A stretch of DNA of 64,000 nt from Entrophospora sp. SA101. Lineage: Eukaryota; Glomeromycota; Glomeromycetes; Entrophosporales; Entrophosporaceae. The first letter of the stretch is position 1. Every line of letters begins with the position of its first letter. Under the pieces are notes generated by a model. The model searched no databases. It saw nothing but the letters and a program-made list of their open reading frames with translations, and was not told where the DNA came from. Below are positions 13,301-56,528 of this stretch, one piece after another. The position numbers were made by a program, and so were the translations under genes. The stretch spans positions 91,175 to 155,174 of the forward strand of contig CAUDNR010003557.1 of the NCBI GenBank assembly GCA_958430865.1. Reading direction: 5' to 3'.

Positions 13301-16300
13301 TTATAAATATTTAATCAATCGATAATTAATGATAATTAAAATTAATTAATTACCTCAAAGTGTGGATATATTTCACCTTTATTTGTTCGAAGTAATATTT
13401 CAGCAAAATCTAAAGAGGCTGTTTTAACAAATCCTAATGACTTTATTTTTGTGCAAAAAATTTTAATTTATTAATTTATTGATTTGTGTAAGTGAAAGGA
13501 CCATATATAACCTTAGAATTATTTGCTCACCTTCCAATATTTTTTAACGCTCACAGATTCAGCAGAAAATCTATTATAAGGTTTATTATTGTTGAGCGAT
13601 TTAACATCATCAATAAGCATTAAATCCATTCTTTGAACAATAAATTTGCAAGAAAACATAGGCGAATCAGGATTAATATTACTACACAACTAATAATATT
13701 ATAATTAATGTTTGTGTGATATTTTTAATTTGAGATTTAAAAAATGTTTTCTAATCCTCTGAATTTTTTTTACCTTAACACAATCAATTGCGAAGACTAC
13801 CCTTGCTGGAAATTTTTCAGGCTGATAGATAATAGAACAATCTCTGACAATAACAGATAGTTTAGTGAATTGACTGGGAATTTCAATAGAAGTTAACTGA
13901 AAAATAAAATAAAATAAATTTTATCATTATTTAATTAATAAACACATAATATAATGTAATACAATGCAAATACCATTTCTGGTTCCTGTAAAAATTCTAT
14001 TAGATCTCCAGTCCATTTAGGATCTTTGGTAAAACTCAAAGTTATACCATTAACAAATAATGACATATCTGTTTCTTTCACATTTGATTCATCATCTTCA
14101 TCATCAAGTGATAAATGCATAATTATTGAAATCATTGGTCGAGTATTTTTATGCTAATAATTATAATCAATGATGGCAAAAAAAGTTATATTATTTACAA
14201 ATATGATAAATAATTAAAATAAATAATTTGAATTTACTTTAAAATCCTCGCTTAAAGTTCTACTAAATATCAGTTCGTCATTCTGATCCAAAAATGAGAA
14301 TTGATCATTATCTAAAACAATATAAGTATCATTCTGCATCCAATAATAATATATATTTATATTAAGTCATATATAAATCAAATATAAATGTCAATGAATA
14401 AAAATAAAAATGAAAGAAATTTACATACTTTGCCTTCGTGTTTAAGAGCTGCAAAAAATCTAAAATCATTCATAATAAATTTATATGAATTCATTTTATC
14501 ATATTGAGCTGTTGTTTTATCTGACTGGCACAACAATGAAATTTCAACTAATAATATGTATACACCCAGATAAATTAGCCTCCAGAGAACATATCAATTA
14601 ATAAATTTAGTTAAAACAATTATAAATATCATTCTACAAACCATTTGTCATGGATACAACAAGAGATGCCAAGCTTGGTTTTAAGGATACATTGGTATCA
14701 CTGCGAGCTCCAATAAATTCAGACTCAAGTTTTCTTCTCATATCAAAATCATCCAAATCGTACATACTTGATCCATAAGGCAATTCATTGTTTTCTAATC
14801 TACTGTTATTATTATTCCTAAATTGTGTGTTAAAAGTTGATTTGATATGATCACTATTATAAGATGCTACAACTTCATCATCATTCACAGAAATGTTTGG
14901 TTGCCATATTGATAAATCATTAAATAAGATTTGGAGTCTATCAAATTGTGTTTTGTTCATTTGAACACGAGTTTTAGGAAAAATACAAGTAATTACAAAT
15001 ATCTATAAATATAAAAAATATATATTAAACTTAATATAATATAAAAAAGGTGATTTCCTAGATAGATAAATAAATTATTTTTTACTCACTGAACTTTCAA
15101 TAATTCTTTGTTTGAACATCAAAATCTCCTCTTCTTCATTTTCAGTTGGCCAAGTTGCTCTATCCTCACCTTCAAAAGATGTAAATGTTTGTGAAAAGGG
15201 TGATCGAATTCCACTTGAGATAAATGTCAATCTACTAGTAATTTCACTAGTTGGACGATAAGATATTTCTACATTTAAAAGTGTTTTTGCTGATTGATTA
15301 TGATTAAGTGGTTGTATAGATGGATTCACATTAAGAAAGCATCTAGCTTCTTTTTCTATCATTGTTCAAAAAAAGATTTATAAAAATTAAATTAATTTAA
15401 AACTAATTAAATTGGTCGATCAATTAATTAATTAATTAATTAAGAATACCATCATATTTTTTCAAAAAAACTTTTATTCCATGACATTCAATTTTAATTT
15501 TGTCTTGTTGTTGTTCATAATTCTTCAAATACAATTCATCGTGTTGTTGTGATATAAGACTTGAAGATTGTGAATCAATATTTTGAAGACTACTATCTGT
15601 ATAAAGATCAACATTTATTATATCTGCAATAAGCAAATCTGAATGTAAACTAAAATAATTTGTAACATCTAATTCATTTGTTCCACTCATATCCGGACAA
15701 TTTAGCATGATTCTTATTAAATTACACTTTAAACTTAAACGTGATGTTTGCAAACTTTTATTCTAAAAAGATGTATGTATATATATATATATATTAATGA
15801 TGATAAATAGGTTTTCTATACAATTGGAAAAAAAAAACTGACCTCTTTTAGCCTTTGAGTATCCAAGTCATCTATTATATGTTGACTTGTTGAATGTTCT
15901 GAATAAGTTGTCTTTGATGAAATTTCTTCTCGAGAATACATAACATTAGAGTTACCGCTTAAAACCATTATATATCTTTCCAATCTATCAATTATTCTTA
16001 AATCCAAATGTAATTGAATTGGTTGTAAATTTACTTTGATATCATTAACAACAAGATTTTGAGATATTTGTGTAGACGCCAATGAACCTAAAAGCGAGAA
16101 AATCAAAATGCTTTAGTGTTATCAATTAAAAATATGTTATTAAGCATTTAATATATATGTATAGGTATATATATAAAATATGTAATTAAAAATACAATAA
16201 TTATACATATAAATACCTCCTGATGTATAATTATTTATACCAATTTTTATTTGAATCGCTTTGTTGTCAAAATTTCTTCCACTAGTTTCAAATGATGCAG

Positions 16301-18862
16301 CACTAGAACTTGAACCCTTGAAGCTATTGGCTTTATATTTAGCATTCTTTGTTGCTGGGTTTTCATTAACAACAAATTTTGGAAAATCTATTGTCTCAAG
16401 ATCATAAGAGTTCAAAAGATTTTGATCGAAAGATAATATGGGATTATAAATATCAAAATTGGGTAGAATATACTCGGGACTTGATGTATTGGTTTCCGGT
16501 TTAGAATTCTCTCCTTGTTTAGGATGATTTTTATTCAGCCACTCCGATATTGATAGGTTGGATAAAGATAAATTCACGTAAACATCTAAACCTTCTTCAC
16601 CTTCTGCAATTTTTGGTAGATTAGAAGAATGACTACCACCTGTAATACTACCACTACGTTTTCTACTAAAAAAAACATCGGATTCATGGATTTGAATATT
16701 ACAAGAAAAATCACCGATATCAACTTTTAAATGATCGCAATTAAGTATTTCTGGTACCCCTGTATCAAAAAATTTCCGATCAGGTATGCAATCAAGTAGA
16801 GGATCCTGATATAGGAAAAAAAGTTCAAATTTAGAAATTTTCATTTTTATATCAAACATATTTGAAGTTGTGATGTTACTGTTATTATTATAGTTATTGT
16901 TACTATTATTATTATTATTACTATTATTAATATTATCAAGATCCTCTAAAATGTAATCAGAATGTTCATCGTAATTAGGTTGCATAGGTTTGTAATAATT
17001 TTTCTTATCATAGTTTTGGTGATGCTGGTGATTATGATGTGGGTTATTATGTGTACTAGTTCTATTAATATCTGATAATTTATTTTCAACCATTTGATTT
17101 TTTTTAAGTACATTCTCGCTAAAATCATCATCACTTTCCATACTACCAGAAGATCTTGTATCCGAAGCATATTTACTTTTACCTAAAATGTTCAATAAAT
17201 CTAATATTAAAGCTAAGTGACCTGGTGTCATCATAGTTGCCACTGATTGAATAAATCCTTCAATGTCCAAAGATTGTGTGACACTTGCTTGTTTTTTAGC
17301 TTCTTGCGAATAATAAAATGAAGATGTGTCATTGTTCAAATCCATTTGAACTGAAAAAGGAGCATTTGGTCGCAATCTAATTCGAATCCAATTTTCTTTC
17401 TCTGAACAAGAAAGAATCATGGCTTCGTATGGCTTTTCTTCATTATCATGACAATCATCTTTTTCTAAAAAATTACGTGATTTTGTATAATTTGATGTAC
17501 TATCATATTCGTCATCATCATTGTCATTATTATTAGGTAATCTATCTGAATTCAAAGTTGATGGTTGATTCAGTTTATTCGAAACGTTAAATGGCGCTTC
17601 TCTCAACCAAATATTAAACCCATCAATTGTCACTGATTTTATTGTTTCTTTTTGATCAGGAGGCAAAGTAACGCTGGCAGAACTATTATTGTTGTCAGTG
17701 TTGTTTGATGTATTTTTGGAATGGCTTGAACCGGGTGTATCGTCACAAAATGATATGTTAGGTATTTCCAGATCAAAATAATAATCCTTTGTTATCTCAG
17801 GATCGGATGACAAGTTAAAATTGGGAGAAATGTTGGATTGATGATGAATTCTAATGCAAGAATTTTTAAGTACTATTTTAACATTTGATAATAATTTATC
17901 AATCAATCTTGCCAAAATTTGAACACCTTCAATACTACTTTCAGAATGTAGAGATGATTGTTGAGGTAAAGTGTCAGATTGGTCCATGTTATTATTAGTA
18001 TTATGATCTTGATTATCAGAAGGATATCCTGAACTGCTATGAAAAGAATTATAAATGGAATTTCGAAGCTCTTCATCCTCGTCAGGATATATTTCACGAA
18101 AAAAATCCCCAGCGATAATGATTGATGATGATATATGAGAATCTTCTGGTGTAGTTTTAGCTACAATATTTTATATTTTATGTATAGATACATATATATG
18201 TAAATATGTAAATATGTAATAATTGAAAATCCAAGAAAATGATATTTTATATCCAATAAATAAAAATAAAAAAAATTTCATTTCTTTATTATATTTTTTT
18301 CTTTTTATTATTTTAAATTTTTTTCTTGTATTGTTTATAATAAAAACATAAATTGATCCATTTATAATTATAATATGGGCCAATTTATTAAAACAATAAT
18401 TTTTACCATTTCTTGGTTTAACATATTCTGGAACAACTGTTAGTTGTAAATTATGCATCTCCAATACAACATCACCATTCCATATATTCTTCCATGGAAT
18501 ATCAGCTACAATGCCACCTATTCGACCTTCAGTCACTACAACTGGTAAATCTGTAAGAAGATCATTTATTACCTATAATTATAAAATATATACATACGCA
18601 TATTAATGTAAATATTTAAGAGTTCCATAAATATATTAGAAAAAAAAAAATAAAAGACAAATACCTCTACATTAAGTTGCAACTCCTTTAAGTGAACAAC
18701 ACCATTACCCAACAACTGAACCTCAAGGTTATCGAGATCTAGTTCTTCTGCTAAAAAATGACCTAAAGCTCGTTTTATTAAAAATTTTAGTAGTCTTTTT
18801 TGTATTGTTACCGGTATTGCAATGCTCAAGCCCCAATTGCTGAAAGACCATCCTTTATACAT
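10328..18862 (-). CDS. ATG2: Autophagy-related protein 2 (ATG2), 24 exons, about 2110 aa
   Basis: A rod-shaped lipid-transfer protein linking the ER to the growing autophagosome membrane, working with ATG9 and ATG18/WIPI. Exons, minus strand: 18665-18862, 18407-18572, 16217-18160, 15843-16087, 15450-15762, 15090-15355, 14642-15002, 14429-14547, 14238-14333, 13974-14153, 13774-13896, 13531-13689, 13354-13440, 13166-13275, 13019-13071, 12786-12950, 12534-12705, 11860-12457, 11646-11766, 11393-11547, 11104-11293, 10751-10996, 10428-10666, 10328-10354. All phases agree and the exons sum to 6333 bp. The N-terminal chorein domain is clear ('IPVTIQKRLLKFLIKRALG', 'ELDLDNLEVQLLG', then 'DLPVVVTEGRIGGI'). 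The C-terminal ATG2 domain is clear ('LPLRFYIDQDALNF', 'MKIDYKPKHIDYTNL', 'ELMNFFHFEAAEMTLRSVKL', 'RSLVNIGSGVADLILLPIEQ', 'KDGRIIRGLQKGTQSFARAT'). The last exon codes only KYKTTKKV. Linkers are Asn/Ser-rich. Length fits the family. Confidence 0.93.
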
Positions 18863-19730: not shown

Positions 19731-20024
19731 AGAAATTGGTCTAACTGCATTGTGATTATGTTGCAACACTATGTGTAGTTTTTATGTAATATATAAAGTT
19801 GCAACTTTTGATATTAATATTTGATTACGGAGGGCAAACTTAAATGTATGTCATCTCTATATTGAGATAAAACCGTTATATTTTAAGAACTATTGCCTTT
19901 TCTATCAATTAATGATGGATGGCTGTATAAACAGGGATCTTGGCAAATAATAAACCATTACTTTTTCGATCAATTAATGAGAGGGATTTTAATATTAGTA
20001 TTAGCAAACTATTACTTTTACATA

Positions 20025-20199
20025 CAGTCACACCTCTTTTATATCCCCACCCATTTATATCCCCTCTTAATCTTATCCTCATTTATATCCCACATTTGAA
20101 CAGTTAAAAATGTCCTTATTCTATATATTTCTAATATATATCCCACAAAATTTGAAAAAAACGCATGGAAAAAAGGGGGGTATAAAAGAGGTAAGACTG
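20025..20199. mobile_element. MITE, 175 bp, Tc1/mariner-pogo type TIRs, TA target duplication
   Basis: The ends are CAGTCACACCTCTTTTATAT on the left and the reverse complement of CAGTCTTACCTCTTTTATAC on the right, flanked on both sides by TA (20023-20024 and 20200-20201). The 5'-CAGTC terminus and TA duplication are those of pogo/Tigger-like elements. There is no coding capacity, so it would depend on a transposase in trans. Confidence 0.8.
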
Positions 20200-21149
20200 T
20201 AATTACATAATAATAAAAAAACAAATTAAAATTGCGAATTGATGATTGATTGATTTCGTGATTAATTTCACACACACATATATTAATCGGAAAATACTTT
20301 TTTACAAAACAAATAAACAAAAAAGTTTGTTGAAAAATAGTGTTTTTAATTTATTACTTTTTGTACAGTTATATTCTTATTTGCAAAATCGTATAAATTT
20401 TTATTGAAAATTTTATGCAATCTTCTGACTCACCACCACAACCAGCTTCTTCGAATGTAAAAAGGTATAAGCCATTCTGGGATTAATTCACTCAAAAACT
20501 CACAAATTGGTGTTGGTTACCCTTAAAAACTAGTAGCGAATTACTGTGCCCAAGTCAATGGAATGACTCTTTAAAAAGACTAGCTTCTTGGTTCATGGAT
20601 TATAGTTAAACCACAAATACCTAGAGATTTAAATAATTTTCCCTTTTACCAGATAGAGCACGGAAGAATTTTAAAGATGTAATTTCTTCTATAAATGAGA
20701 ATTTAACTTCTTCTTTGTCTTCTTTTAAAGTTGAATATGTTACTGCTTCATCTTCGACCTCCTCTTCCAAAAAGCCTCCAGTAGGAAAATTATGACTTTA
20801 CTCTAATTTGGAAGAAAAAAACAAAATATTAAAATGGATTGGTATCACGCGCTGGATGTACAACCAATGCCTAGCTGCAATTAATCATGATATAAAAACA
20901 CAAAAATAGAAAGAAAATATTTACGTGAAAACTATTGCTGATCATCTAAAGACATCAAAAATTTTAACTAAACTTTAAAATGTATAAGCTCAATGACCAT
21001 GCAAGATAAAAAAGAAAACTCTCTATAGTTTTATTCTATAAGACATAAGGAAAGATGCAATAGGGTGTTTTTTTAAATTTTATTAAAATTAAAAGAGTTA
21101 TAATGGTTTAAAGTTTGTCATTTTTACTATTAAAAAAAAATTTTTCACC

Positions 21150-21690
21150 ACTGATCATTACTCTATTTAAAGAATATTTTCACGATATAAAGAAGTGCTA
21201 CGTGATATTTGTGACTCGTGAAATTACACTAAAACAGATTCGGGAACTCTTCTACGAGAGTGATACTTTTTAACTGCAAAAATAGCAGCTTTACCAGAAA
21301 GCCCCATCCTATAGGCACTCGTAACCTATAACATCTTCTTGCAAAATTACGAATTTTACAGAGAAAAATAGAATTAAGAGCCAATGACACAGTTTTTTGT
21401 AAACCTTCTCAAGATTCTAATTTTGTAGTTAAAGATAAATCTCTCCAGTCATCATCAGGTTCAATGTATTCATAGATTGACTCTTCGATTTCTAATCCAG
21501 GTTCATTTACATCTAATTCATTCAAAATGTTTGTGTCAATCTGAGATTCATTTTCAAACACCTCCTTATCAATATATTCATCTGTAATGGGTTTAATAGT
21601 TTCTTTCATTTTTTTAGTTTCACAAGCTTTTGTAAATGCTAATTTCTTTTATTCTGTTTAGGCATTTTAACAAAAAAAAAAATAAAGAAA
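21150..21690 (-). pseudogene. Transposase-type ORF fragment inserted antisense in the Fanzor relic
   Basis: The minus strand begins 'MPKQNKRN' (21672), needs one frame change, then gives 'LAFTKACETKKMKETI', an acidic Glu/Asp-rich segment, 'DDDWRDLSLTTKLES' (stop at about 21409), and in other frames 'NSIFLCKIRNFARRCYR' and 'GLSGKAAIFAVKKYHSRRR'. The start 'MPKQNKRK..' and the 'GL.GKAA.FAVKKY.SHRR.P' block recur in transposon proteins of this fungal group as I remember them; that is recognition, not a search result. It separates the N-terminal and RuvC parts of the Fanzor relic, so it inserted later. Confidence 0.5.
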
Positions 21691-22352
21691 TAGATTTGAG
21701 TTAAAAATCGCGTTCCATAAAAGGAATGATTTTCATAGAAAATTTCACCAATTGACGCAACATTTGATGTGTTTAGATGATTGGCATCATACTAGTCTTG
21801 ACATGCATTATTACATTAGGGATGTAGCAATGATGGACTTTTTAAAAATTATATTGCTTTAAAAATTCAGATCTAAAAAGAATAAATTGCATTCTATCAA
21901 GAGAATGAGGAAGAAACCATTATTCATTTCTCAAAGATATTGATGCAAGTGAGAAATAGCTGAAATAAATAATGACCTTTGTCTCACTGAATTGTCTTGG
22001 CGAATCCTATTTGTGTATTCCCAAACCATGCTGATAACCAAGGTCCTAGATTTTCAGCGGTTGAAGAGAATAATAGAGGCACTAGCATCATTTCTCTTGA
22101 TCCAGTAGTGAAAACCTTCATGACAAGCTATAACTCAAGTGGTGAGGTTACAGAATGGGGTATTAGTAGAATATATCAATTGTGCTTGCATTATGATAGA
22201 ATCCGAGGTGAAAGGGATTCTATTCATGACCAAGCAAATAAGTGTAGGAAGTATAAGCTCCCGTCAGTGCATACTCTGTATCCACAAGAAAATTCGTAAT
22301 CTTGTGGATGAATGTCATCAAAGATTACCAGGATGGTTCTTTGAAAACCACT

Positions 22353-22506
22353 ATCATCAGGAAAATAAATCTTACGTAAACCTACATAGGGTTCAGAATT
22401 GGCCAGCATTATGTTGATATTTTGGTAATTCTGTTAACATTTCCGCATAATGCTGGTCAGTTTTAAATCCTGTGTAGGTTTACATGAGATTTATTTTCCT
22501 GATGAT
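22353..22506. mobile_element. Palindromic MITE, 154 bp, inserted in the Fanzor RuvC-II region
   Basis: The arms 22353-22425 and 22434-22506 are about 73-bp imperfect reverse complements, starting ATCATCAGGAAAATAAATCT and continuing through GTAAACCTACA and ACCAGCATTATG around an 8-bp centre. The insertion splits the Fanzor frame between 'FFENHY' and 'LPEFKT'. It is close to a perfect foldback, which suggests a younger age than its host gene. Confidence 0.75.
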
Positions 22507-23159
22507 GTGGCTTCCTGAGTTTAAAACATAAGACATAGTTAAAAATGCGGTTCTAGAAAAATCTACTCTAAAATTCTAAGACCTGGTCACATTACCATTT
22601 TCGCCAATATTTGCTCCACAAATCCTGCGAGTACCTTTGGTTCAAGGTTGTCATCTGCACTGAGAAATACACTAGCAAACATGCAGATGTTGTGGATATG
22701 TTCAAAGATCTTTGGTTGTACATCTTATAAATCTGCCATTAATAGATATGCAAATAGAGCTTGTAATATACTTTTGAAGTATATTACAGAAAAACAACAA
22801 GAGTCGTTTGCAACAGTGGGGCTTGCACCTAAGACACCTTATTGTGGGCTGTCTACATAGGACTTGTCTTTAGAATTAGTATAGGTTCAATGTAAGATAT
22901 TTTTTTTTAAAGGAATTAATTAATTGTGTAATAAAAACATGCGATATTAAAATTATGAGGCTTGTTCCAATATATAAAATTTCCTATGCGATTTTAAATA
23001 AATCCCAGTATTCTAGATTGGATTTTCCCCAAAGTATGGTCAAACCTCATTTCAACTGATCTAAGGGACCACCCACCTATTACTATTACTATTACTGTAT
23101 AGTCATCAATTATTTTGAATACTATGATTCTATTTTCTTTTTCAATGATTTTAAAGCTT

Positions 23160-23600
23160 TTAATTCATATTGTTTGGTTCAAGAAAATTAAAAGCAGTTT
23201 CAAAAGCTTTTACAACTTCATTTATTATTAGAACATTAGGAATGGTTGTACTACTTGTATTACCCACAATAACATTTTCTCCTCCAATTTGCTCAAGAAT
23301 TTCCTTTTTGGATGGCATTTCATTAATCTCCTCACCATCAATTGATATATATTTCTCTGCTGCTAATGCTGAACTGAAACTTAATCTATCAATTAAATTA
23401 TCAACATCATCTCTTTGACCATTTATATTTTGTATTAATGTTGTTGCATCTCCAACTTGTTCTTCATAATCTAAAGGAATAATACCAGAGAATTATTTTT
23501 AAAACCATCATTATATTATAGTGCATGCCATCTAAAGACATCAAATGCTTCATTGTACTGCCAAATCTTCAAATCCCAAATAGCAGATATTCTTCAGTGT
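23160..23600 (-). pseudogene. Tigger/pogo-like (DDE_1) transposase, C-terminal fragment
   Basis: The minus strand is open from about 23490 to a stop at 23160-23162: 'GIIPLDYEEQVGDATTL', 'LSFSSALAAEKYISIDGEEI', 'SKKEILEQIGGEN' and 'INEVVKAFETAFNFLE'. The acidic 'A..Y...D.E....P....I' tail followed by a helix of the 'A......FL' type is the C-terminal pattern of Tigger/CENP-B-like transposases after the DDE domain. Upstream (23500-23600) the frame is broken. The catalytic domain is absent. Confidence 0.5.
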
Positions 23601-24020
23601 CACAGGATTATAAAATCACATGACTCAATCATTACGAGTTTGAGTATTCAAATTACATTGAAAGAATATTCAATTCGTTATCTGATTTATTTTAAATGCA
23701 GAGTTTGCTTATTTTGTCTTGGCTTTTTTTTAATTGTAAGAATGTAAATTTCTTAATAATGTATTGTATTGAATTTAAGAGAAAAAAAAATATTGCTTCA
23801 CATTTTACCAAATTCGCCAAATGTGATGAAATTAACAACAATATCAATTTCATGTAAAGAAATGTTTATAATTATTATTAATGGTATATTATTTAGAGGT
23901 GTGTAAAGAATTTATTATTATTATAATTGGAAAAACAGGCACACTTTGATGTGGAGGAATATTTACATAGTTATGCATGATGAAATTAATTACATTATCC
24001 ATTGTAAAAAAAATAATACA

Positions 24021-24522
24021 TTAATTTAACTTAATATATTTTATGAAAAAGTTTTCAAGACTATCTTCAATTGCATCCATTCCTCTTTTTCCACAATCAC
24101 AATTACTTTTATTACCATTGTTATTTACAGTGGGTGATTTTGATTTTGGTTCATTATTTGGTTCACTAACTGGTAATTCTTGATTATTATTATTGGTTTG
24201 TTGTGGTAAAAATGATTCTAAACTATCATTGGACAGCAGTTCATTTGTTGATTTTGTATCGTTGTTGTCTAATTGTCCTTTTGGTAATTCTAACCTTGTA
24301 TCATGGTTGTGTAATGGCCCTTGTATCATGGTTGTGAATTTCATTTGATGGTGATGCTGAAGGTGATGATGACAAATGTGATTCATTTGATGGATTATCA
24401 TCATTTATTGATGACAATGGTAAAGATGGTGACATTGATGTTGTTGATTTTACCAATACTTTTCCTGAGTTGACCTGATATGTTTGGTAATAACAAAACA
24501 CCACAATAAGCATAATGGACAT
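24021..24522 (-). pseudogene. Small secreted-type protein gene broken by a 25-bp duplication
   Basis: The first frame starts at 24522 (MSIMLIVVFCYYQTYQ...), a plausible signal peptide, and runs through Ser/Pro/Asn-rich sequence to 'NEIHNHDTRAIT' before a stop. A second frame resumes at a repeated 'HNHDTR' and continues 'LELPKGQLDNNDTK' to a Cys-containing end, 'CDCGKRGMDAIEDSLE', with stop at 24021. The switch lies exactly at two copies of CCTTGTATCATGGTTGTG (24294-24311 and 24319-24336; offset 25). Removing one 25-base unit would join the frames. Function unknown; small Cys-containing secreted proteins are often called candidate effectors, but nothing here shows that. It could be an allele-specific break or an assembly error. 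Confidence 0.55.
24294..24343. repeat. 25-bp tandem duplication
   Basis: Two adjacent direct copies, offset 25 bases (first 24294-24318, second starting 24319), sharing CCTTGTATCATGGTTGTG without mismatch. The unit is not a multiple of three, so it shifts the reading frame of the surrounding secreted-type ORF. Confidence 0.85.
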
Positions 24523-24792
24523 CCTATTCTTGGAATTTCATTGGTTAAATTTTGTGACAATCAAATCCGAAATATCACACAAAACAAATTTCTGATTTGT
24601 TGCGAAAAATTAAAAATAGAAATAGTCATGGCCGATCAGAGATCACAAAAAAACATTCGGCCGGTTCATTAATTTTTAACAGTAATAGTAATAATTTTAT
24701 ATATATAGGACTTGTAGTTTGAAGTTAAAATCAAAATTAAATTGAATTTTAACATCAAATTTTAACAATCAAATCAAATTTTAATTGCCAAA

Positions 24793-24924: not shown

Positions 24925-27029
24925 CCACCATTCTTTTCGCCGGGGACTGTAAATTGCTTTTTTGACTCAAATCTTCTTGCAGAAGGTTCAATTAAGTGAC
25001 CAAAATGTTCATTATGAAATGTAGATTATTTTTTATGGGATCAGTTACAGTTTGATTCTACTTTTTTTTTATTAGTACTGACTGTCACAATTACAAATAA
25101 GAGTTTGTTTTCGTATGTCATTTCTCAAATTTTTGCTTAAATCCTTGTTGTTGCGCTCATTGTTTAATATACCTGATACTAACTTTCCTAGTTGGGAAAT
25201 GCATACTATCATCCAGTTTTGTAATCATTCTGATTCTTCTCGGTAACATTGCTATCTTCAGAAATGTTCTCTAAAATGTGATGGTTGATATAAATTCGCT
25301 TTCACTTCTTTCAGAATCACTTGAAAAGTCAATTTATTCATGATTAATACAAAGTTTTTAAGGACTAAAATTTATTAAAAAAGGGGTTTTTTTTGTGATA
25401 TTAAAAATCTTGAACAAAATCTAATTTCCCATATTATTAAACCTTGTGCCTAATCAACTGTTATCAATTATTTTTAAATATGACAATAATTTACTTCAAT
25501 AGGCAGTAAATCTAGCCCATAATGTGAATGTGGCTTTATTTCATCTATTGGAACAAGATTTTACATTTAAAGTGGGACGTTTTGTCGTTTTAAATTTCTA
25601 TAAAAATAATTAGAACCCGATTCAAGATTCTAGCTATTAATTAATTTTCTTTATGACTATTCACATTTGACTATTTAAAATGCATGTCGTTTATCACGAA
25701 TTACGAATTTTTTTTAAAAAAATAATAATAAAAGAATCGGCTAACTCTTTTTTTAGCCAATTTTTTTTACTTTTGATCAAAATTCATTTATTCACAAAAA
25801 TTTAAAGTCAAGATTCTTTCAATCATCATTAGACAATTCTCTGCAAATGGAAAACAAGGGGATTTTTTTAAACTTTAGACTGTTTATAGAATATCAAACA
25901 ATTTTTTCCTCCTTATTTAACATAAAAAATGGGGTTATCATTGATATTCTCAAATGCAATGCTATTGTCCTTATTCACTCTAACCATTACGTTGTCATTA
26001 TTTCATTTTTTATTAGATCATATCATCAAATCATTCCTACAAACTCATTTATTATATGTACAATGTATGTGAGTACACACTATTATTATGAAAAGAATAA
26101 TGAATAAAATGAAATAATTATGAAAGAAGACACTTCCTTCCTGAATACACCAATCTTTAATACTAACCGAGATGAGTTATGGAGATTTGATTGTTTTTTT
26201 AAAAAAAATTTTTTTTTTGATAATAAAGTTGGTAAATTATTGATGTGAAATGATAATGTTGTTGCGACGCCTATCATTGTTTTTTTGTAATAATTATTAT
26301 TATTAAAATTTGTTATAATGTTTCAATCTTGATTTCATCCTTCCCTAAAAATTCAGTTTATAAAAATTTGTTGACAGGCTTTTACAATTTGCCTTTTGTC
26401 ATTTGGCATTTGCATTCAACAAAATTCCAATTTACAATCAGCTATATAGGATATTTCAGATTGCTAGAGACTTTCTTTTTTTTTTTAAAAAAAAAAAAAG
26501 CAGAAGTTTGGATTTTCCAAATATTTATATCGGGTAAAAAGTTTTCTATTCCGAATTTATAATTTTTTTTCACACCTTTATTAATAATCGTTAATAAATA
26601 ATGACAAGTTCATATTTTTAGCTTCTTAGTGGCTTAAATCTAGTTGCGGCTATGACTAGAAATTGGAGGCAATTTATTTTTGTAAGAATCATCATCAGGC
26701 GAGGATTGTCAATTTAGCAATCATTGTTTGTTTGGTTTAATGGTGTAATATTTTAATATAATTTAAAAATAAAGTACAAAAAAATTATTTTTATGTTTTT
26801 TAATCTATAAAGAGAAGCCTTGCATCTCATTTTTTCATTATGCAAACAGGGTTCGGTTTTTTCACCGATTATAAAATCCTTATATTAGAGATTATTATTG
26901 AGTAAAAAGACTCAAAAAAAAAAAAAAAAAAAACAGCTTGTAGCTCGATTTTTCTAGTAACAGATCCCAAATAATAAATTGCAAGAATTATTCTTTTTTA
27001 CAAGCTATAGCCTGTAAATATATATATAA
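24925..27029. other. Intergenic, decayed AT-rich sequence
   Basis: Long homopolymers (for example A/T runs at 26190-26220, 26480-26500 and 26915-26935) and short stop-flanked ORFs (25847-26107, 26329-26562) without recognisable motifs. I see no gene, RNA or clear repeat. Confidence 0.4.
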
Positions 27030-28502
27030 TCATCTTTTCTTTCCAGATATTCTAGATGATTAAAAAAAAATTTTTAGTATTAGTAAACATGGAATAAAAA
27101 AATACTAAGAAGAAGAGAGGAATGAGTGTTTACCTAAAATTTTTTATATAAGGTTTATACTTAATATTTTCTACAGCACATTGTTCAATCATTTCATTAT
27201 ACTCTTCTAAACTAACTCCGATAAATGATGAGATATAAGGTCCAGCAGTTTCTAGTGACCCAACTATAGTTGTTCTTAACTACACAATTAAATGATGTAA
27301 TATAATAATGATCATTTTATTGCCATCATAAAAGATTTATTATTTATTAGCATCACCACCATAAAATAACATATTTACCACTTCACCAGTCATACCATCA
27401 CCACCTAATGGAAAATTCCTTGCTTGATTACTAATTTCAACCATTTTATCAGAATTCATTAATTTTTGTTCAATAGATTCACGGATTGATCCATCTATAT
27501 TACACGATTTGTATAATTTCATGACTATAATTTAATTGATAATTTGTTAGAGCTTATTAAGAAATAGTATTAAACAGTTTATTAAATGGTTATTTACATC
27601 CAGCCATATATCTTTTCCCCACTGGACCCAAGCCATATGGCATGACTTCATTTTCCTAATAATAATAATGAATAACAAAGTTAATAATATAAACATATTT
27701 CTTTATCACATCATTATTATGTTTATTAATAATTACCACAAATTCAATCCAACCACCAGGTTTAGTTATACGTATCAGTTCATCTATTACAAAAGACCAT
27801 TGATCAATTTTTAATGACTGTGTCATATGTTTTTGATGAACAAAATCAAAAGTGTCATCTGGAAATGGTAAACCATCAAGTATGTTATGTCTAATTACTG
27901 CTAAATTTTCTGGTAATTCTTTTTTAGAATCATTCAAATCAATCACTATATCAATTCCAACAAATGATGACTTTGGAAATTCTTCTGCCATAAATATTAA
28001 CCAAGTTGCAGGTCCACATCTGAGAAAACAATTATAATTAATTCATGATTATTAGATTGTCATAGGAGAAGTTTGATGAATCAATCAACTTACCCAATGT
28101 CTATTACAGATGCACCACCATTCTTTAATGTTTCTTTCACAGGAGAAGAAAATTTACCATTCCATATATGCTGTGATAAAACTTCTACAGTTTCCATTAT
28201 AGACATTGACTATAAAATAATAGAAAGTTTTAGAAAGTTGTAGGAAATTAATAATTAATTAACTTATAATTTACCTTATCATCAACAGGCAAGAATTCAC
28301 AAGATTCTTCGATATTATTAAATTTTCTACCATCAATAATTTTAAAATTCTCAATTGTGAAATCATCAAAATCGTCATCATTTTCTTCTTTGTTATTGTA
28401 AAATAATATTTTTTTTTCCTTCTTATTACAATAATTTTCTAATGGATGCGAATTTTTACGATTTATTGATGGTCTACCAACAAGATGATGATGCAATGAC
28501 AT
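27030..28502 (-). CDS. SAM-dependent class I methyltransferase, copy A, 7 exons, about 332 aa
   Basis: Exons, minus strand: 28275-28502, 28094-28209, 27737-28019, 27598-27655, 27379-27524, 27134-27279, 27030-27051 (228, 116, 283, 58, 146, 146, 22 bp; sum 999). SAM-binding motif I is 'ASVIDIGCGPATW', split by an intron between the two Gly codons (about residue 113). The acidic end of strand 2 is 'FVGIDI', motif II is 'LDGLPFPDDTFDFVHQKHM', and motif III is 'ELIRITKPGGWIEFV'. This is the UbiE/Methyltransf_25 type. The N-terminal 70 residues are charged and low in complexity (Asn/Lys/Asp), start MSLHHHLVGRPSINRK, and show no targeting signal. The substrate is unknown; a C-terminal helical cap ('YISSFIGVSLEEYNEMIEQ') shared by all four copies probably sets specificity. 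Intact in every exon. Confidence 0.88.
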
Positions 28503-30235
28503 TATTTTGAATTTTAAATTTTTTAATTATATAAATAAAATAAAAATGATTTTTTTTTAAAGATCCACGATAAAATTTTTATCGAAAAATTATGCCTTAT
28601 TACTTTATATAATAATAATAAATAATTATTCAATTAACATTCTAAACAATTACACAAGAGCAAAAGAGATCATTTTAATATTTTAATATCAATAAACTCA
28701 TTCAAGTATTTAGACCGATCTCCAAATGGGGAAATAAAAAAATAATTTTTCTTCAGAAAGAACTAATTTTTTTATTGGTAAGCTAAATAAATATATTTAA
28801 TATATATAACTAGTTTATAATTAATGTATAAATTTATAATGCTTATTCTATTTTTTCTGTATCATCATCAACAACGATCGACAACATCATAGTATTATTT
28901 TTTTTTCATCGTCTATCGAGATAATAATAATGAATATTATATTCATATGCAAGAACGCTATCAATTAGACTTTCATCCATTAAAAGAAAAGACAAGTCTA
29001 ATTCATTACCAAGACTAAGTTTTTTTGTCCGTCGAATTACTTCGTTAATATTAAGGTTGAAGAAATCATATATTCCAACACTATTTTGTTAAACTGACGT
29101 CGAGAATTTAAATCTAACAATCAATAAAAGAAACACTGAACAAGTTCTACTTATTACGCTCGGTGCGTAAAATCAATCGGTGAACGTGCACGTTCTAACC
29201 AAATATGTAAATTGTACACTGATTTTTTGTTAATTCAATGGCTTCTTTTTAACAAGATTATCATCATATTTATTTATTTGTTATGTAATCAGTTCCCGTA
29301 ATTGCATAATATCATTCAATTTTTTTTTGACTGATTACGAATAATTTTATAATATGCCGATCATTACTTATTACCAAGAACTTTAAATGTTAAAATGAAT
29401 TCATTAGTTTGCATGAAAATGAAAACTTTTACTGTGATTGCAAAAAGAAACTTACAAAAAACTACATATAATATCTATATCAGGAAAAAAATTAAAATAT
29501 ACGGCATCAATAAATTATATTTACCTGTATGCAATTCTTTTGTCTAATGAAAGAACATTAAAATTACTTGTTAAATTGATATAATGATAATGTTTGCTCA
29601 TTTAACACACTCGCTATTGGTTAATGACACGCCACTGTGACGAAGCATAATAATATTCATACCTTCTTTTTAAATGAAATATTGTATGAGTCATTATAAT
29701 TGTACTTTCTAGTGTTCCTTTTTTTTGGCGGTTGAGTTATTGTAACAAAATAAATAGAAAAAAAACAAATGTAATTTATTCGAATTTTTGAAAACATACG
29801 TTTCTCATCTAATTTCCGGATTACTTTGGTATTACACCTAAGCTCCTTATTGATATGCATTCCAAATGATTTTTGGGCAGGAAACATTTTAAAGATAGAT
29901 GATCGGGTAATGATTTTTATTTGTTGCTAGATCTTAATTATTATAGCAATTCAAGGAAAGCTTGCAGAGGTAAGGAATGATTTAGGTTATGCTTGGCTAT
30001 GAATAAATAATCAAGCACCTTGATTGAGTAACATTGATCATAATTACACACAGACCATCTTGGAGAGTATATACATTTATAGAATATGATCAATAATTGG
30101 ACTACTCAGATGACAATTTATTCTTGTAGAAAAATGCATTATCAGATGATGATTAGTAATTAAAACAAAAAAAAAAAAATAATAAATTGTAAATTTATTT
30201 TTCTGTAAGTTATAATCTAAGTAAATATGTATATA
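28503..30235. other. Intergenic between methyltransferase copies A and B
   Basis: Copy A promoter side at the left, copy B 3' side at the right. About 28887-28997 resembles 32893-33003 upstream of copy B (shared TATTATATTCAT, GCAAGAAC and GACTTTCATC-type blocks), so the duplication included flanking DNA. A 76-codon minus-strand ORF (29657-29887) has no recognisable motif. Nothing else seen. Confidence 0.4.
28887..28997. repeat. Duplicated upstream flank of methyltransferase copies A and B
   Basis: This block and 32893-33003 share ordered similarity (ATAATAATAAT, TATATTCAT, CAAGAA.(A/C)CTATCA, TTTCATC.ATTAAA). They lie about 400 bp and 1.2 kb upstream of the two start codons, indicating duplication of a segment larger than the genes. 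Confidence 0.5.
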
Positions 30236-31661
30236 TCATCCTTTTTTCCCACACATTCTAGATGATTAAATATATTTTTAGTATTGGTAAACGTGGAATA
30301 AAAAAATAGCAAAAAGAGGGAATGATTATTTACCTAAAATTTTTTATATAAGGTTTATACTTAAGGTTTTCTACAGCACATTGTTCAATTATATCATTAT
30401 ATTCTTCTAAACTAACTCCAATAAATGTTGAGATATATGGTCCTGCATTTTCTAGTGACCCAACTATAGTTGTTCTCACCTAAATAATTAAATGATGCAA
30501 TGTAATAATGTTTATTTATAAAATATTTATTAGCATCAACACCATAAAATAACATATTTACCATTTCGCCAGCCATACCATCACCACCTAATGGAAAATT
30601 CCTTGCTTGATCAGTAATTTCGATTATTTCATCAGCATTTATTAATTTTTGTTCAATAGATTCACGGATTATTCCATCTATATTACATGATTCATAGAAT
30701 TTCATGACTATAATTTAATTGATAATTTGTTAGAACTTATTAAGAAATAGTATTAAACAGTTTATTAAATGGTTATTTACATCCAACCATATATCTTTTC
30801 CCCACTGGACCCAAGCCATATGGCATGACTTCATTTTCCTAATAATAATAATGAATAACAAATTTAATAATATAAACATATTTCTTTATCACATCATTAT
30901 TATGTTTATTAATAATTACCACAAATTCAATCCAACCACCAGGTTTAGTTATACGTATCAGTTCATCAATTACAAAAGACCATTGATCAATTGTTAGTGA
31001 CTGTGTCATATGTTTTTGATGAACAAAATCAAAAGTGTCATCTGGAAATGGTAAACCATCAAGTATATCATGCCTAATTAATGCTAAATTCCCTGGTAAT
31101 TCTTTCTTAGAATCATTCAAATCAATCACTATATCAATCCCAACAAATGTTGATTTTGGAAATTCTTCTGCCATAAACGTTAACCAAGTTGCAGGTCCAC
31201 ATCTGAGAAAACAATTATAATTAATTCATGATTATTAGATTGATGATTCAATTAAAATCAATCAATTTACCCAATGTCTATTACAGTTGCACCACCATTC
31301 TTTAATCTTTCTTTCACAGGAGAAGAAAATTTACCATTCCATAAATATTGTGATAAAATTTCTGCAGTTTCCATTATAGACATTGACTATAAAATAATAG
31401 AAAGTTTTAGAAAGTTGTAGGAAATTAATAATTAAGTAACTTATAATTTACCTTATCATCAACAGGAAATAATTCATAAAATTCCTCAATGTGATCAAAT
31501 TTTTTATCATCACTGATTTTATAATTCTCAAAATTATCAAAACCATCATCCTCTTCTTCTTTGTTATTGTAAAAAATTTTTTTCCCCTTCTTATTATAAA
31601 ATGGATGCGAAATTTTACGATTTATTGATGGTCTACCAACAAAATGACGATGCAATGACAT
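30236..31661 (-). CDS. SAM-dependent class I methyltransferase, copy B, 7 exons, about 326 aa
   Basis: Tandem paralogue of copy A, same strand, about 1.7 kb away. Exons: 31452-31661, 31271-31386, 30920-31202, 30781-30838, 30562-30707, 30334-30479, 30236-30257 (210, 116, 283, 58, 146, 146, 22 bp). Five of the seven exon lengths other than the first are identical to copy A in order, and even the intron sequences are nearly identical between exons 3 and 5, so the duplication is recent. Motif I 'ATVIDIGCGPATW', 'FVGIDI', 'LDGLPFPDDTFDFVHQ' and 'ITKPGGWIEF' are intact. The N-terminal charged tail is shorter than in copy A. The final exon codes only a short basic end (RMCGKKG). No inactivating change seen. 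Confidence 0.88.
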
Positions 31662-33015
31662 TGTTTTTAATTTTGGATTTTAAAATTTTTAATTAAATAA
31701 AATAAATAAAATAAAAATGTTTTTTTTTTTTTAAGATTGGATTTTAAAAATTTTAGTTTTTATATTAAGACTGAAACGTCCAATGTCCCGAAATTCGATT
31801 TTCGCGTACAAACTGTGCTAATCAAATTTGGGGATTTATATGCAGATTTTTGCAAATCAACTTTTATATAAAAATTTTTGTAGTGTGATCTCTATTTTTC
31901 TAGTCTCGGTGACTGGTCTTTTTAGGAACAAAAACCGGTTAAAGACTGGTTAAATAGTATTTTGAATGTGGATTGCATATTAATGTATGAAAATAATAAA
32001 TAAACTTTGGAAAATAAATTGCACGCATGGTTTCGTTTGACTTATTATATCTATTAAGCATCATTTTACTATTGGATTTTATTTGAATCCATACAAAATC
32101 GTTTTAACTGTTTGTGGTTTCAATCTGTGGGATGAAATTGTTGGACCTGCAATTGGAAATTAATTATTTTTTTATTATAATCTTTGTTTATTTAAAAAAA
32201 TTGCCTACAATGATGAATAGATGATAAATTCAAGTATTTGAAAAAGAGCTTTGGACCTTTATATTATTATTATTATGTAATGAATATAAAAAGCAACAAT
32301 AACTTTTAGAATGTGTAATTAACGAAAACTTGGCATTGCCGATAAGATGAATAAAAATTTGGCCAAATTTAGAATAAAACTGGTGCACAAGCAATATTTT
32401 GTACAAAATTTCTTAGTCCCAAAATTTCGCTGTATAACTAGTACAAATTTAGAAACTATCTCAAAAAATTAAAAAAATTTGATTGGTGTGTAATGTTACA
32501 CCCGGACATTGAATTTTCTATATACACTGTGCACGCACCATAATAATAATAATATTTAATCGGGGAGAAATTAATTTAAAGTTAATGTATTAATATTAAT
32601 ATAGTTATGATGATCCTTTGGATTTTTGTTAGAAAATCAGAAAGAGGCAAATCAATATTAATTATTAATATCCAATGATTCGCATATGACCTTTGCATGC
32701 ATGCATGAAAAACTGTCGTCTCACCGCATATATTTTTTTTTCGTGTGGTTTTTTCTGATTGGAAAAATTTTTTTACTTTGAGAGCGTAGAAATAATTGTT
32801 TCCGCAGCAAGCTCTTTCATTCATAAACGGATTATCAATCAATGACTATTCACAAGTGTTCTGTATTATTCTTCAACAACAAAGTCATATTATCTTCGCC
32901 ACCTATCAAGATAGCTTTATCATAATAATAATAAATATAATAAATATTATTTATATTCATCGGCAAGAATACTATCAGCTAGATTTCATCTATTAAAGAG
33001 ACCTTACAAAAGGTT
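31662..33015. other. Intergenic, upstream of methyltransferase copy B
   Basis: AT-rich. It holds the duplicated flank at 32893-33003, and at 31770-31930 and 32340-32560 two stretches of somewhat higher complexity (CCGAAATTCGATTTTCGCG; TGTTACACCCGGACATTG) that look like transposon scraps but were not identified. Confidence 0.35.
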
Positions 33016-50509: not shown

Positions 50510-51923
50510 ACGAGCAAAAATCATAAAAATTCACATCCGTTAGAAAAACATTATAATAAGATGAAAGAGAAAGAAAATTATAATAACAAAGAAGAAAAGG
50601 ATGCCGGTTATGATGATTTTAAAATCATTGACGGTAGAAAATTTATTAATGTAGAGGAATCTTGTGCATTCTTGCCTGTTGATCACAGGGTAAATTATAA
50701 GTTGGTTAATTATTAGTTTCCTAAAATTTTTCTAAAAATTTTTATTGTTTCATATAGTCAATGTCTATAATGGAAAAACTTGAAATTATATCACAACATA
50801 TATGGAATGGTAAATTTTCTTCTCCTGTGAAAGAAACATTAGATAATGGTGGTGCATTTGTAATAGATGTTGGGTAAATTGGTTGATTTTAATAATATTT
50901 AATTCAATTCTATGACAATCTAATAATTATAGATCAATTACAATTGTTCTCCCAGATGTGGACCTGCAACTTGGTTAATGTTCATGGCGGAGGAATTTCC
51001 AAAGTCATCATTTGTTGGAATTGATATAGCAATTGATTCAAAAGATTCCAAAAAAGAATTACCAACAAATATAGCAATGATTAAACATAATATACTTGAC
51101 GGTTTACCATTTCCAGATAACACTTTTGATTTTGTTCATCAAAAACATATGTTAACTGCACTAAAAATTGATCAATGGCCTTTTGTAATTGACGAACTGA
51201 TACGTATAACTAAACCTGGTGGTTGGATTGAATTTGTGGTAATTATTAATAAATATAATAATGAAGGTGGACGGATTATATTATGACGTGATAAAGAAAT
51301 ATGTTTGTATTATTAACTTTGTTATTCATATTAGGAATATGAATACTTGCCATATTCCTTTGGTCCATTGGGGAAAAAAATTTTGGCTGGATGTAAATAA
51401 CCATTTAATAAACTGTTTAATATTATTTATCAAGTCATTTAATAAATTTTATCAATTAAATATAGATGTGAAATTATGCCAATCGCATGATATAATAGAT
51501 GGAATTCATGAATTTATTGGAGAAAAATTAACAACTTCTGATGAAATAATTGAAATTAGTCATCGGTCAAAAAATTTTCCATTAGGTGGCATTGGCATAG
51601 CTGGTGAAATGGTAAAATAATATTTTGTTGATAAATTAACATAATGACCAATAGATAATCTTTATATCATTTAATTTTGTAGTACAGACGAAGTATTATT
51701 GATTCAATAGAAACAATTAGACCTTATCTCTCATCAATTATTGGAATTAGTTTAGAAGAATATGATGAAATGATTAAACAATTTGTTTTAGAATGTATCA
51801 AGTATAAATCTTATCTAAAAATTACTAGGTAAATATTTATTAGTATTTCTTTATTCCATGTTTACTAATGCTAAAAAATATATTTAATTATCTAGAATAT
51901 ATGGAAAGACAAAAGCTGATTAA
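50510..51923 (+). CDS. SAM-dependent class I methyltransferase, copy C, 7 exons, ancestral start codon lost
   Basis: Exons: 50510-50689, 50758-50873, 50956-51238, 51335-51392, 51466-51611, 51683-51828, 51896-51923 (180, 116, 283, 58, 146, 146, 28 bp), all open and in phase. The position matching the start of copy D reads ACG (50510-50512). The next in-frame ATG is 50561-50563, which would give about 301 aa lacking 17 residues of the low-complexity tail but keeping the whole catalytic domain. Motif I is 'FVIDVGCGPATW' across the exon 2/3 junction, then 'FVGIDI', 'LDGLPFPDNTFDFVHQKHM' and 'ITKPGGWIEF'. The third exon is full length, unlike copy D. It could be functional from the internal ATG, or be in early decay. 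Confidence 0.75.
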
Positions 51924-53194
51924 ATATATTAACATGATTAGTTGAACTAATTTTAATTGACTTAAGAGAACTAATACCACATTAACATAAAATTTTTAAA
52001 AAATAAAAACATTGCTTTTATTTTTTGTTTAAAGCAGAGAACTTTGGTAAAAAGCCATATTTTATTTGTTTAACAAGCAAAAGTTGGGACTAACATTGGT
52101 TAACTAGTGAGTGTTGACAATGATTGGTAACATTATTTGTTTAATAACCAAAAGATTAGTGTTAATGTAAATGTAAGGCTGTTAAATAAGCTGCTTGTTT
52201 TGTAAATAAATCGCAATCGGCCAGATAAAAATAAACAAGAATCGTAAGTGAATAAAGGAACTTTATAGAGTTTTTGAGCTTTGTAAAAGAGTCATATTTA
52301 TTTATTTACAGTTATCCTACACTATCAAGTGTGCTTATAGATCTGCCGAAACTTTCTATATATGCACAAGAGAGAGGCATTAAGCAAGAACCAATAAACC
52401 AATCAATTGACAAATGTGTATTGTTTGCAATTAACCGACAAGGGTGACCCAAAAGTTAAGCTATAATTGTTAAAAAATTAGTGTTAACAGAAAGGTTACC
52501 TTGCAATATTTTGAGATCCAGAACTGACTGCGAAAAGTCCTATATAGTTTATTATGGTTATTATTTAAATAAGGATTTAGTGTAAAGAGTAAGGTTCTTC
52601 TCTTTTGGCCCTCATTTACTTTTTGAAGATTATTTCAAACTCTTTGGCGATTATTAAATACGAGCCTTTTATTATCTATTTCAATAAAAGTGTAAAGTTG
52701 CAAACAACATAAAAACGTTTAACAATGGAATCGTTCAGAACTAATTTCCGTCTAGGGTGGTAATTAATTATTTCCAGTATTGATACAAGGATCAACTTTT
52801 CAATTATTGCAAAATCATTAACTTTAGAATTGATGCTGAAATTTCACTAAACAATTGACATTTATTTGTTTCGATTAGTGTATGTTGAAAGTATGAGATC
52901 CTAAGCAGATCGCAAAGGACGAACTTCAGAATTTCAAGGCACAAAGCCTGAAATGGTGTAGCTTACGATTCAATGATTCACGGTTATCAAACAAAAATTT
53001 AGATATAGTTATGAATGACTTATTCGACAAATAGAGGAGGGCTAACTTGTGTCAACGTGTTACATACAACCTAGCTCAACAATTTGTTAATTTGCCACTC
53101 TTTCAATAGCAATCATCGAATCATGTTTATTTAAAATTTTTTACAAAGATTTTATTAAACTTTAAAAATAAAAATAAAAATAAAATAAACAGAT
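51924..53194. other. Intergenic between methyltransferase copy C and the GC-richer ORF block
   Basis: Short direct words (GTTAACTAGTGAGTGTT; ATTAGTGTTAA at 52145 and 52478) but no coherent repeat or gene. Base composition becomes less AT-rich toward the right end. Confidence 0.35.
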
Positions 53195-55083: not shown

Positions 55084-56528
55084 ATGGCTAATGAAACTTC
55101 ACATCCGTTAGAAAATCATTATAATAAGATGGAAGAGAACGATAATCATAATAACAAAGAAGAAAAGGACGATGATTATGATGATTTTAAAATTGTTGAT
55201 GGCAGAACATTTATTAATATAAAGGAATCTTGTGCATTTTTGCCTATTGATCACAAGGTAAATTGTAAGTTAATTAATTGTTAACTTCCCAAAACTTTCT
55301 AAAACTTCCTATTATTTATAGTCAATGTCTAAAATGGAAATTTTAGAAGTTATATCACAACATATATGGAATAGTAAATTTTCTCCTCCCGTGAAAGAAA
55401 TATTAGAGAATGGTGGCGCATCTGTAATAGATGTTGGGTAAGTTAAGTTGGTTGATTTTAATTGAGTCACCAAGCTTCTTCTACGACAATCTAATAATTA
55501 TTAATCAAATATAATTGTTCTCCCAGGTGTGGGTCTGCAACTTGGTTAATGTTCATGGCGGAGGAATTTCCAAAGTCATCATTTGTTGGAATTGATATAG
55601 CAAGTTTGAAAGATATCAAAAAAGAATTACCAACAAATATGGCAATAATTAAACATAATATATTTGATGGTCTACCATTTCCAGATGACACTTTTGACTT
55701 TGTTCATCAAAAACATATGTTTACTGCATTAAAAATTGATCAATGGCCTTTTGTAATTGATGAACTGATACGTATAACTAAACCTGGTGGTTGGATTGAA
55801 TTCGTGGTAATTATAATAATGAAAGTGAATGGATTATATTATAGTGTGATAAAGAAAGTATGTTTATATTATTAACTTTGTTATAATTAGGAATATGAAC
55901 AAAGGCCATATTCCTTTGGTCCATTGGGAGAAATTTTTTTTACTGAAGGTAAATAACCATTTAATAAATTATTTAATACTATTTATTAAACCGCTTAATA
56001 AGCTCTAACAAACTATCAATTAAATTATAGTTACAAAACTATGCAAATCACGTGGTATGGATATATCATGTTGTGAATCTATTGAAGAAAAACTAACAAC
56101 TTCTGATAAAATAGTTGAAATTAATCATCAAGCAAAAAAATTTCCATTAAGTGGTCATGGTATGGCTGGTGAAATGGTAAGATATATTATTTTTGTGTGG
56201 TGGTAATTTTAATCAATTAATATAATGGCAAATGGATAATATTTATTATTTTATACTATTTAATTATGTAGCTCAGACAAAATATGTTTGCTTCAATAGA
56301 ACCCATGAGGCCTTATTTCCCATCAATTATTGGAGTTAGTTTAGAAGAGTACGATGAAATGATTAGAAAATTTATTTTAGAAATTATTAAGCATAAAACT
56401 TATCTAAAAAGTTCTAGGTAAATATTTATATTCTCTCTTTCTTTCTTGGTATTTTTTTATTCAATGTTTATTAATACCAAGAAAATAATTATTTATCTAG
56501 AATATATGGAAAGAAAAAGGTTAATTAA
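55084..56528 (+). CDS. SAM-dependent class I methyltransferase, copy D, 7 exons, about 315 aa
   Basis: Exons: 55084-55257, 55322-55437, 55527-55806, 55891-55948, 56031-56176, 56272-56417, 56501-56528 (174, 116, 280, 58, 146, 146, 28 bp; sum 948). It starts MANETSHPLENHYNK. Tandem paralogue of copy C and inverted relative to A and B. Motif I is 'SVIDVGCGSATW', with Ser where the other copies have Pro after CG. The third exon lacks one codon ('ASLKDIKKEL' against 'AIDSKDSKKEL' in copy C). Motifs 'FVGIDI', 'FDGLPFPDDTFDFVHQKHM' and 'ITKPGGWIEF' are intact. The fourth exon ends differently from the others ('FFTEG' instead of 'LAGC/Y'), so the cap helix is diverging. Probably active. Confidence 0.86.

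Follow-up and report, generated by a model that had tools for sequence, protein, structure and literature searches.

The 64-kb stretch of DNA analysed here (‘the window’, positions 91175-155174 of contig C1485 within a 101.3-Mb assembly of 2123 contigs) very probably carries, at 20415-22860, a Fanzor2-like gene that has decayed neutrally and belongs to a multi-copy family, the live form of which is proposed to have combined a protein with a pseudoknotted omega RNA scaffold. As a locus, the relic is ordinary in kind, fungal Fanzors being already known (Saito et al. report Fz2 broadly in fungi; PMC10432273); what is new is the conserved block found at the 3' end of the family's copies. No account of this glomeromycotan branch was found in the open-licence literature, and members of it may sit in the supplementary tables of Saito et al. 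The features of the relic and its immediate surroundings, in window positions, are the following:

20242..20303, plus strand: degenerate unit of ~50-100 bp tandem repeats (blastn to copy C1684b, 79% over 62 bases)
20415..20935, plus strand: 5' part of the relic, with an ATG at 20415, the N-terminal region, the HTH/wedge start RWMYNQCL (20850) and several in-frame stops (tblastn 61%, 153 columns, E 3e-44)
20936..21789, minus strand: TIR element inserted in the relic, with a degenerate minus-strand ORF (TIRs of about 26 bp and a probable TA duplication, by eye)
21797..22354, plus strand: middle of the relic, with IRDVAM (21815), KFRSKK (21863), SLDP (RuvC-I, 22093) and KIRNLVDECH (22289) (tblastn and direct reading)
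22355..22504, no strand given: palindromic foldback inserted in the relic (window 22345-22513 against its own reverse complement, 78%)
22505..22860, plus strand: 3' part of the relic, with LPEFKT (22511), WSHYHFRQYLLHKSCEY (22584, containing WSHYHFR), the relocated Glu, YTSK (22668), zinc-finger remnants and RuvC-III NRYANRACNIL (block NRACNILLKY at 22753) (tblastn and direct reading)
22803..22814, plus strand: remnant of a putative reRNA hairpin (GUCG-loop-CGAC in many sister copies)
22818..22829, plus strand: putative reRNA stem-loop, its apical loop CUUGCA (CUUACA in most sisters) forming the 5' strand of the proposed pseudoknot
22875..22897, plus strand: conserved 3' motif ATTAGTATAGGTTCAATGTAAGA, in which UGUAAG (22891-22896) would supply the 3' strand of the pseudoknot
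22902..22955, plus strand: AT-rich tail beyond the pseudoknot strand, common to other copies (93% to the C980 tail, query 15-69 of 86)

When the window was read directly, all nine of the TnpB/Fanzor blocks described in a first-pass annotation of this DNA were found between 20415 and 22860, in the order it had given and spread over three frames. The reference protein for the relic was a 524-aa open frame from the same genome (locus L006, contig C1299), with residues 15 to 523 of which the relic is collinear, in pieces: tblastn returned a best block at 20469-20912 (E 3e-44), three further blocks at 21846-22028, 22030-22257 and 22265-22354 (joint E 8e-40) and another at 22543-22854 (E 4e-17), all remaining matches in the 64-kb window having E values of 0.14 or worse. 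Neither a better match to an unrelated family nor a non-collinear arrangement of blocks arose in this comparison, and chance or an unrelated family is ruled out by the collinear blocks. The Pfam check of the relic came out in two parts: TnpB/Fanzor domains are present by way of L006 (PF07282, ‘TNB’, at E 1.7e-14 and PF12323, ‘HTH_OrfB’, at E 2.9e-11, with PF01385 under its cut-off), but six fragments of the relic searched singly gave no meaningful match, so that the tie of the relic to TnpB/Fanzor runs through L006. The TNB and HTH_OrfB domains are present in 37/37 aligned relatives, and the superfamily signature (D ... C4 zinc finger ... RD, with TNB PF07282) is found in L006 and in the same 37/37, with remnants only in the relic.

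On its left the relic has as neighbour a minus-strand gene at 16143-18170, for which five protein matches were obtained in all. The three that are named are 39-41% identical and come from Funneliformis caledonium (Autophagy-related protein 2), Racocetra fulgida and Cetraspora pellucida. Funneliformis belongs to Glomeromycota, as do Racocetra and Cetraspora; these named matches, at that level of identity, therefore place the host, a relative of the mycorrhizal fungi, in or near Glomeromycota and distant from those genera. Collinearity with L006 and a glomeromycotan-like neighbour together support the reading of the relic as a gene of the TnpB/Fanzor family, now dead, that lies in the chromosome of a fungus, as had been proposed from the blocks.

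The active site of the relic is partly preserved. The RuvC-I Asp, which had been said to survive, is indeed kept (codon 22099-22101), with DPG changed to DPV. The companion claim for a RuvC-II Glu holds to the extent that the Glu of LPEFKT is present, but this residue is not the catalytic one (E in 17/37 aligned proteins); the Glu that is invariant in 37/37 aligned proteins is E453 (L006 numbering), six residues ahead of the zinc finger, and the codon for the relocated Glu is kept in the relic at 22662-22664 (in CTEKYTSK, 22656). Similarly, the reported loss of both Asp residues of the RuvC-III ‘DRD’ is true of the relic, but the first of them is uninformative: L006 itself already reads NRD (D in the other 36 of the 37 aligned proteins), so that only the loss of D488, which is present in 37/37 family proteins and is Tyr in the relic (22747), is telling. 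The fourth zinc-finger Cys, read directly, has also become Tyr.

The first stop falls at codon 24 after the ATG at 20415, several frame changes follow, and about 15-20 codons beside the first insert are gone (from the tblastn coordinates). Relic and L006 are 86.5% identical over 1339 aligned bases, with substitutions spread evenly over codon positions 1, 2 and 3 (68/51/62) and 50 of the 181 synonymous, against a fraction of 0.267 expected under neutrality; comparison of ten further copies gave synonymous fractions of 0.24-0.36. Judged from this even spread and near-neutral synonymous fraction, the relic is a long-dead copy that has decayed neutrally.

Stretches related to the TIR element that interrupts the relic occur elsewhere in the genome at 80-93% identity, and the two sister copies of that element inspected with their flanks (C1106 and C17) lie outside Fanzor sequence. 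Several sister copies have, ahead of the ORF, tandem repeats of ~50-100 bp like those of which a degenerate unit precedes the relic. A short element whose ends are inverted (CAGTC...CCTCTTTTATA / TATAAAAGAGG...GACTG), seen by eye, occupies about 20022-20206, directly upstream of the relic, and a ~1.4-1.6 kb repeat is present in four window copies (26969-28558, 30177-31729, 50523-51931 and 55091-56536; 78-89% identity), two per orientation. At a larger scale, a block of ~14-19 kb that includes the relic stands three times on contig C1485, at spacings of 31.15 and 31.56 kb. In the window it starts somewhere between about 6.5 and 10 kb and ends between 24.4 and 25.5 kb. The three instances are 100% identical over 5521 bases around the relic, 4/14 probes (201 bases each) match the window with unchanged offsets, and the block is either a recent tandem duplication or an assembly artefact. 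At C878:91987-96271, a further, almost identical copy of window 21616-24400 runs into a copy of 23193-24717 in inverted orientation.

The family is present in many copies, the counts of which are lower bounds in which a single copy may yield several matches. A PF07282 profile search of the genome gave 53 matches, some of which are bacterial or belong to a different lineage. A search with the window DNA and its inserts gave at least 89 stretches of similarity (from 40 of 383 candidates scored), and a relative protein (P0002) matched at least 111 times by tblastn (from 89 of 340 candidates scored). Among public proteins, at least 2246 homologues were found at E 1e-5 among 8000 candidates scored, not all of them of this branch, and two of the best 120 relatives carry organism names, Diversispora and Gigaspora. 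The possibility, raised in the first-pass annotation, of intact copies elsewhere in the genome was not borne out, as no intact full-length gene appears among the 111 tblastn matches listed. The best of these, L006, is the sole match listed that runs free of stops across almost all of the protein (1-463 of 479), while C1684:57092-58219 covers residues 1-367 without one. The C1299 sequence upstream of the KPFWDE start of L006 is unrelated to other copies, and the frame has no Met ahead of that start; with its 5' end thus replaced, L006 is not an intact full-length gene. A search for a serine resolvase (PF00239) found no match in this genome, in a survey with a positive control in 10/14 genomes, and since no resolvase domain was found the family is not classed here as IS607-type.

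Two further groups of PF07282 or TnpB-related loci were seen in the assembly. One is a second, different lineage of PF07282 relics, possibly Fanzor1 (L052, L057 and L069, on C434, C1720 and C147), ending WNR(D/N).NAARNI...ERPEIF. The other comprises bacterial-type TnpB genes (L002, L003 and L004, on C1908, C102 and C366) that are 408-438 aa long under code 4 (TGA = Trp) and at most 139 aa under code 11, with 31-33% GC; their contigs probably represent a mollicute-type endobacterium in the assembly.

Copies of the family share a block that runs from the last codons to just beyond the stop codon, and the search behind the copies for a conserved non-coding guide-RNA region, suggested at the outset, was in this way rewarded with a guide-RNA-like block. 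A 23-base motif within it, CTTAGTATAGGTTCAATGTAAGA, occurs at 25 places in the genome at ≤3 mismatches (reversed control, 1). Most of these places (21/25) adjoin a Fanzor match, two (on C1181) show Fanzor remnants in alignment only, and the remaining ones have little beyond the 3' end (C1663) or are cut by the contig end (C233). Of 34 further 3' flanks, the motif (≤4 mismatches) was present in 6 and absent from 28, many of the latter belonging to another lineage. The fold modelled for the block consists of the GUCG/CGAC hairpin, a GGG-CUUACA-CCC stem-loop, two further stems and a pseudoknot, CUUACA/UGUAAG. It is paired in 92.5% of cells across 22 copies, against 34-42% when slid, as is expected of a model drawn from the same sequences; left out of the 22 were identical rows, C776 (stem-loop deleted), C429 (decayed), C956 (a chance match) and ten motif-less loci. 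Covariation within the 22 copies is not above shuffles (2 two-sided pairs, shuffled mean 1.5, 235/500 shuffles equally high), folding of the alignment alone is weak (-2.7 versus -0.2, with 3/200 shuffles as low), and Rfam at gathering thresholds gave no match in the window. In published descriptions of IS607 TnpB and Fanzor2 reRNAs, the apical loop of a stem-loop pairs with the nucleotides that flank the guide, and such a pseudoknot is described as required for IS607 TnpB activity; the conserved 3' block fits a candidate guide-RNA scaffold of this layout.

An outside comparison bears directly on the proposed pairing. A 3478-base contig in a bacterial bin (L097) encodes a MerR-resolvase, with the PF00239 domain, and a 597-aa Fanzor2 that is 38% identical to L006 in the best segment. 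Behind its RuvC-III stands GGG-CGTACA-CCC, with TGTACG 168 bases from the start of the stem, within TATAGGTTTAATATGTACGG; the pairing CGUACA/UGUACG there, against CUUACA/UGUAAG here, is a two-sided change by which pairing is kept, and this comparison with one outside sequence supports the predicted pseudoknot. In 2000 dinucleotide shuffles of L097, the motif match (11/12) recurred 4 times, the 6-mer alone 58 times and both in register 0 times. The open element itself, at L097:606-2544, is of IS607 type (resolvase plus Fanzor2); its contig is binned as bacterial, and its 34% GC together with the Fanzor2 type suggests a eukaryotic or viral source. No close relatives of L097 were found in viral contigs. 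The C-terminal tails of relatives also appear to support the block: VG[AST]Y occurs in 8/112 and LGLT in 11/112 (shuffled means 0.12 and 0.25), and these peptides correspond to this genome's block, GTTGGGGCTTACACC, read in two frames. That count covers the 112 of 120 proteins with a recognisable end, at the protein level only, with patterns picked post hoc and tails that are mutually related.

Several comparisons bear on the type of Fanzor to which the family belongs. The pattern given by Yoon et al. for Fanzors (DPG-x(120-160)-E-x6-C4-x-D; PMC10711439) is found in L006 (residues 308-488). Of the 120 relatives listed, 115 have at least 350 aa, and 102 of these carry the pattern as well; nine fit a form without the Pro, and 12/115 fit neither form. 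The same pattern appears in 68 of the 80 loci kept, of 280 found, in prokaryote assemblies (75 with cyanobacterial titles), and in only 3/13 loci from viral contigs. When a profile of 37 sequences was compared with solved structures, mimivirus L79 was nearest, at full length (E 7e-43), and bacterial TnpBs were also matched, so that the family appears closer in sequence to TnpB than to Fanzor1, in a library that may lack Fanzor1 chains. Mimivirus elements are classed under Fanzor2 by Bao and Jurka (PMC3627910). On the active-site signature, the L79 and TnpB profile matches and cyanobacterial kin such as those of the pro-Fanzors, the family is best filed as Fanzor2-like.

An assignment to Fanzor1, the type best known from early-diverging fungi, has distribution in its favour: Saito et al. 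describe Fz1 as highly spread in fungi (PMC10432273), and in the table of Bao and Jurka five of nine fungi have Fanzor1 families only, including Rhizopus, Phycomyces and Mucor, with four yeasts having Fanzor2 only (PMC3627910). The family here shares with Fanzor1 (SpuFz1, PpFz1, GtFz1) its standing as a eukaryotic TnpB homologue reported in fungi. However, no chain named Fanzor is among the 23 structure matches listed up to E 10, in a library that may lack Fanzor1, whereas L79 and bacterial TnpBs are; HTH_OrfB_IS605, reported for some TnpB and Fanzor2 (PMC3627910), is present; and the complementarity for a pseudoknot is retained, which published Fanzor1 reRNAs are described as having lost. Fanzor1 was rejected on the structure-profile matches and is judged very unlikely. 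That the relic is instead a bacterial TnpB brought in by contamination of the assembly might be argued from TnpB genes of bacterial type that other contigs carry (of the five loci L001-L005, three have long frames under code 4), but the named relatives of a gene on the relic's own contig are glomeromycotan, decayed copies are scattered over many contigs, and both of the organism-named proteins in the best-120 list come from Diversispora and Gigaspora. This explanation is extremely improbable and was rejected on the neighbouring gene and the spread of copies.

The remaining alternative concerns the 3' block alone, which could be a terminus bound by a transposase and no part of an RNA scaffold. 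In better-kept copies the block does lie close to the 3' end, within-genome covariation says nothing either way, and the scaffold RNA is a prediction. Against this, the changes in L097 affect loop and 3' strand jointly, the ORF runs into the block, which is seen in two reading frames in the tails of relatives, and the layout of the block matches the reRNA pseudoknot described for IS607 TnpB and Fanzor2. A transposase-binding terminus is accordingly considered unlikely, and a candidate scaffold remains the preferred reading of the block.

The copies continue to resemble one another past the pseudoknot strand, with 88-90 of 90 bases common to six copies (96-99% identity), 83 to one and the first 48 only to two; in an older group of copies about 55 bases are common. 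Directly behind the strand, GGTTAGTA is exact in 11/22 copies and within one mismatch in 14/22 (it is absent from the window copy), and is often followed by a T-rich run in copies with differing flanks. In IS607 elements the guide is the DNA that adjoins the right end; because ~50-90 nt past the pseudoknot strand are common to copies with different flanks, a flank-derived guide is a poor fit here. The scaffold may continue to the real end of the element, another element may have captured the unit, or the guide may be fixed. Should the scaffold end at the pseudoknot as in IS607 TnpB, the tail would by analogy hold an element-encoded, fixed guide in place of one taken from the insertion site, a doubtful proposition with little probability attached to it, which if true would make the protein a homing-type rather than a site-retention nuclease. 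As a pattern for a genome scan, the would-be guide gave 31 matches at ≤2 mismatches (16 for the reversed control), and 13/15 matches at ≤1 mismatch lie at known Fanzor copies. Terminal inverted repeats were sought at the family's ends in eight copies, three of which had no usable anchor; in the other five (C1012, C527, C1425a, C820 and the window), 5'/3' alignments were no better than shuffles. The idea that tail-only copies represent an empty host element was rejected: tail searches gave five places beyond the known Fanzor copies, and of the four inspected, three lie behind Fanzor relics and one could not be judged.

The Fanzor2-like family thus described is nearest to IS607-type Fanzor2 such as mimivirus L79, with which it shares DPG, the relocated Glu, HTH_OrfB, the C4 finger, a full-length profile match and pseudoknot complementarity, but from which it differs in the lack of a detected resolvase domain in this genome, in the common tail past the pseudoknot strand and in its many copies, none of those listed being intact. 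With Fanzor2* (Fanzor2 carried by eukaryotic transposons other than IS607; Yoon et al. 2023, PMC10711439) it has in common a Fanzor2-type protein without an IS607 transposase, whereas the cases published there carry TIRs and target duplications, none of which were found in the five copies scored here. Cyanobacterial pro-Fanzor TnpBs are 29-38% identical in the best segment, often over nearly the full length, and mostly share the pattern, but are bacterial and are reported with an IS607 TnpA.

By analogy with published work on Fanzor2 and IS607 TnpB, a live gene of the family would have encoded a protein of ~530 aa, with an N-terminal extension, HTH/wedge, RuvC with DPG and relocated Glu, and a C4 zinc finger. 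An RNA of hairpins closed by the pseudoknot, transcribed from the end of the ORF and the bases that follow, would have served as a right-end (‘omega’) RNA scaffold, and the complex of protein and RNA may have cut DNA beside a short motif and so aided the persistence of the element. The useful part of the finding is the family as a whole: a Fanzor2-type protein spread across an AT-rich fungal genome where no transposase of its original type was found, together with a candidate scaffold that can still be read. This offers material for asking how Fanzor2 changes outside IS607 elements and where the guide would then come from.
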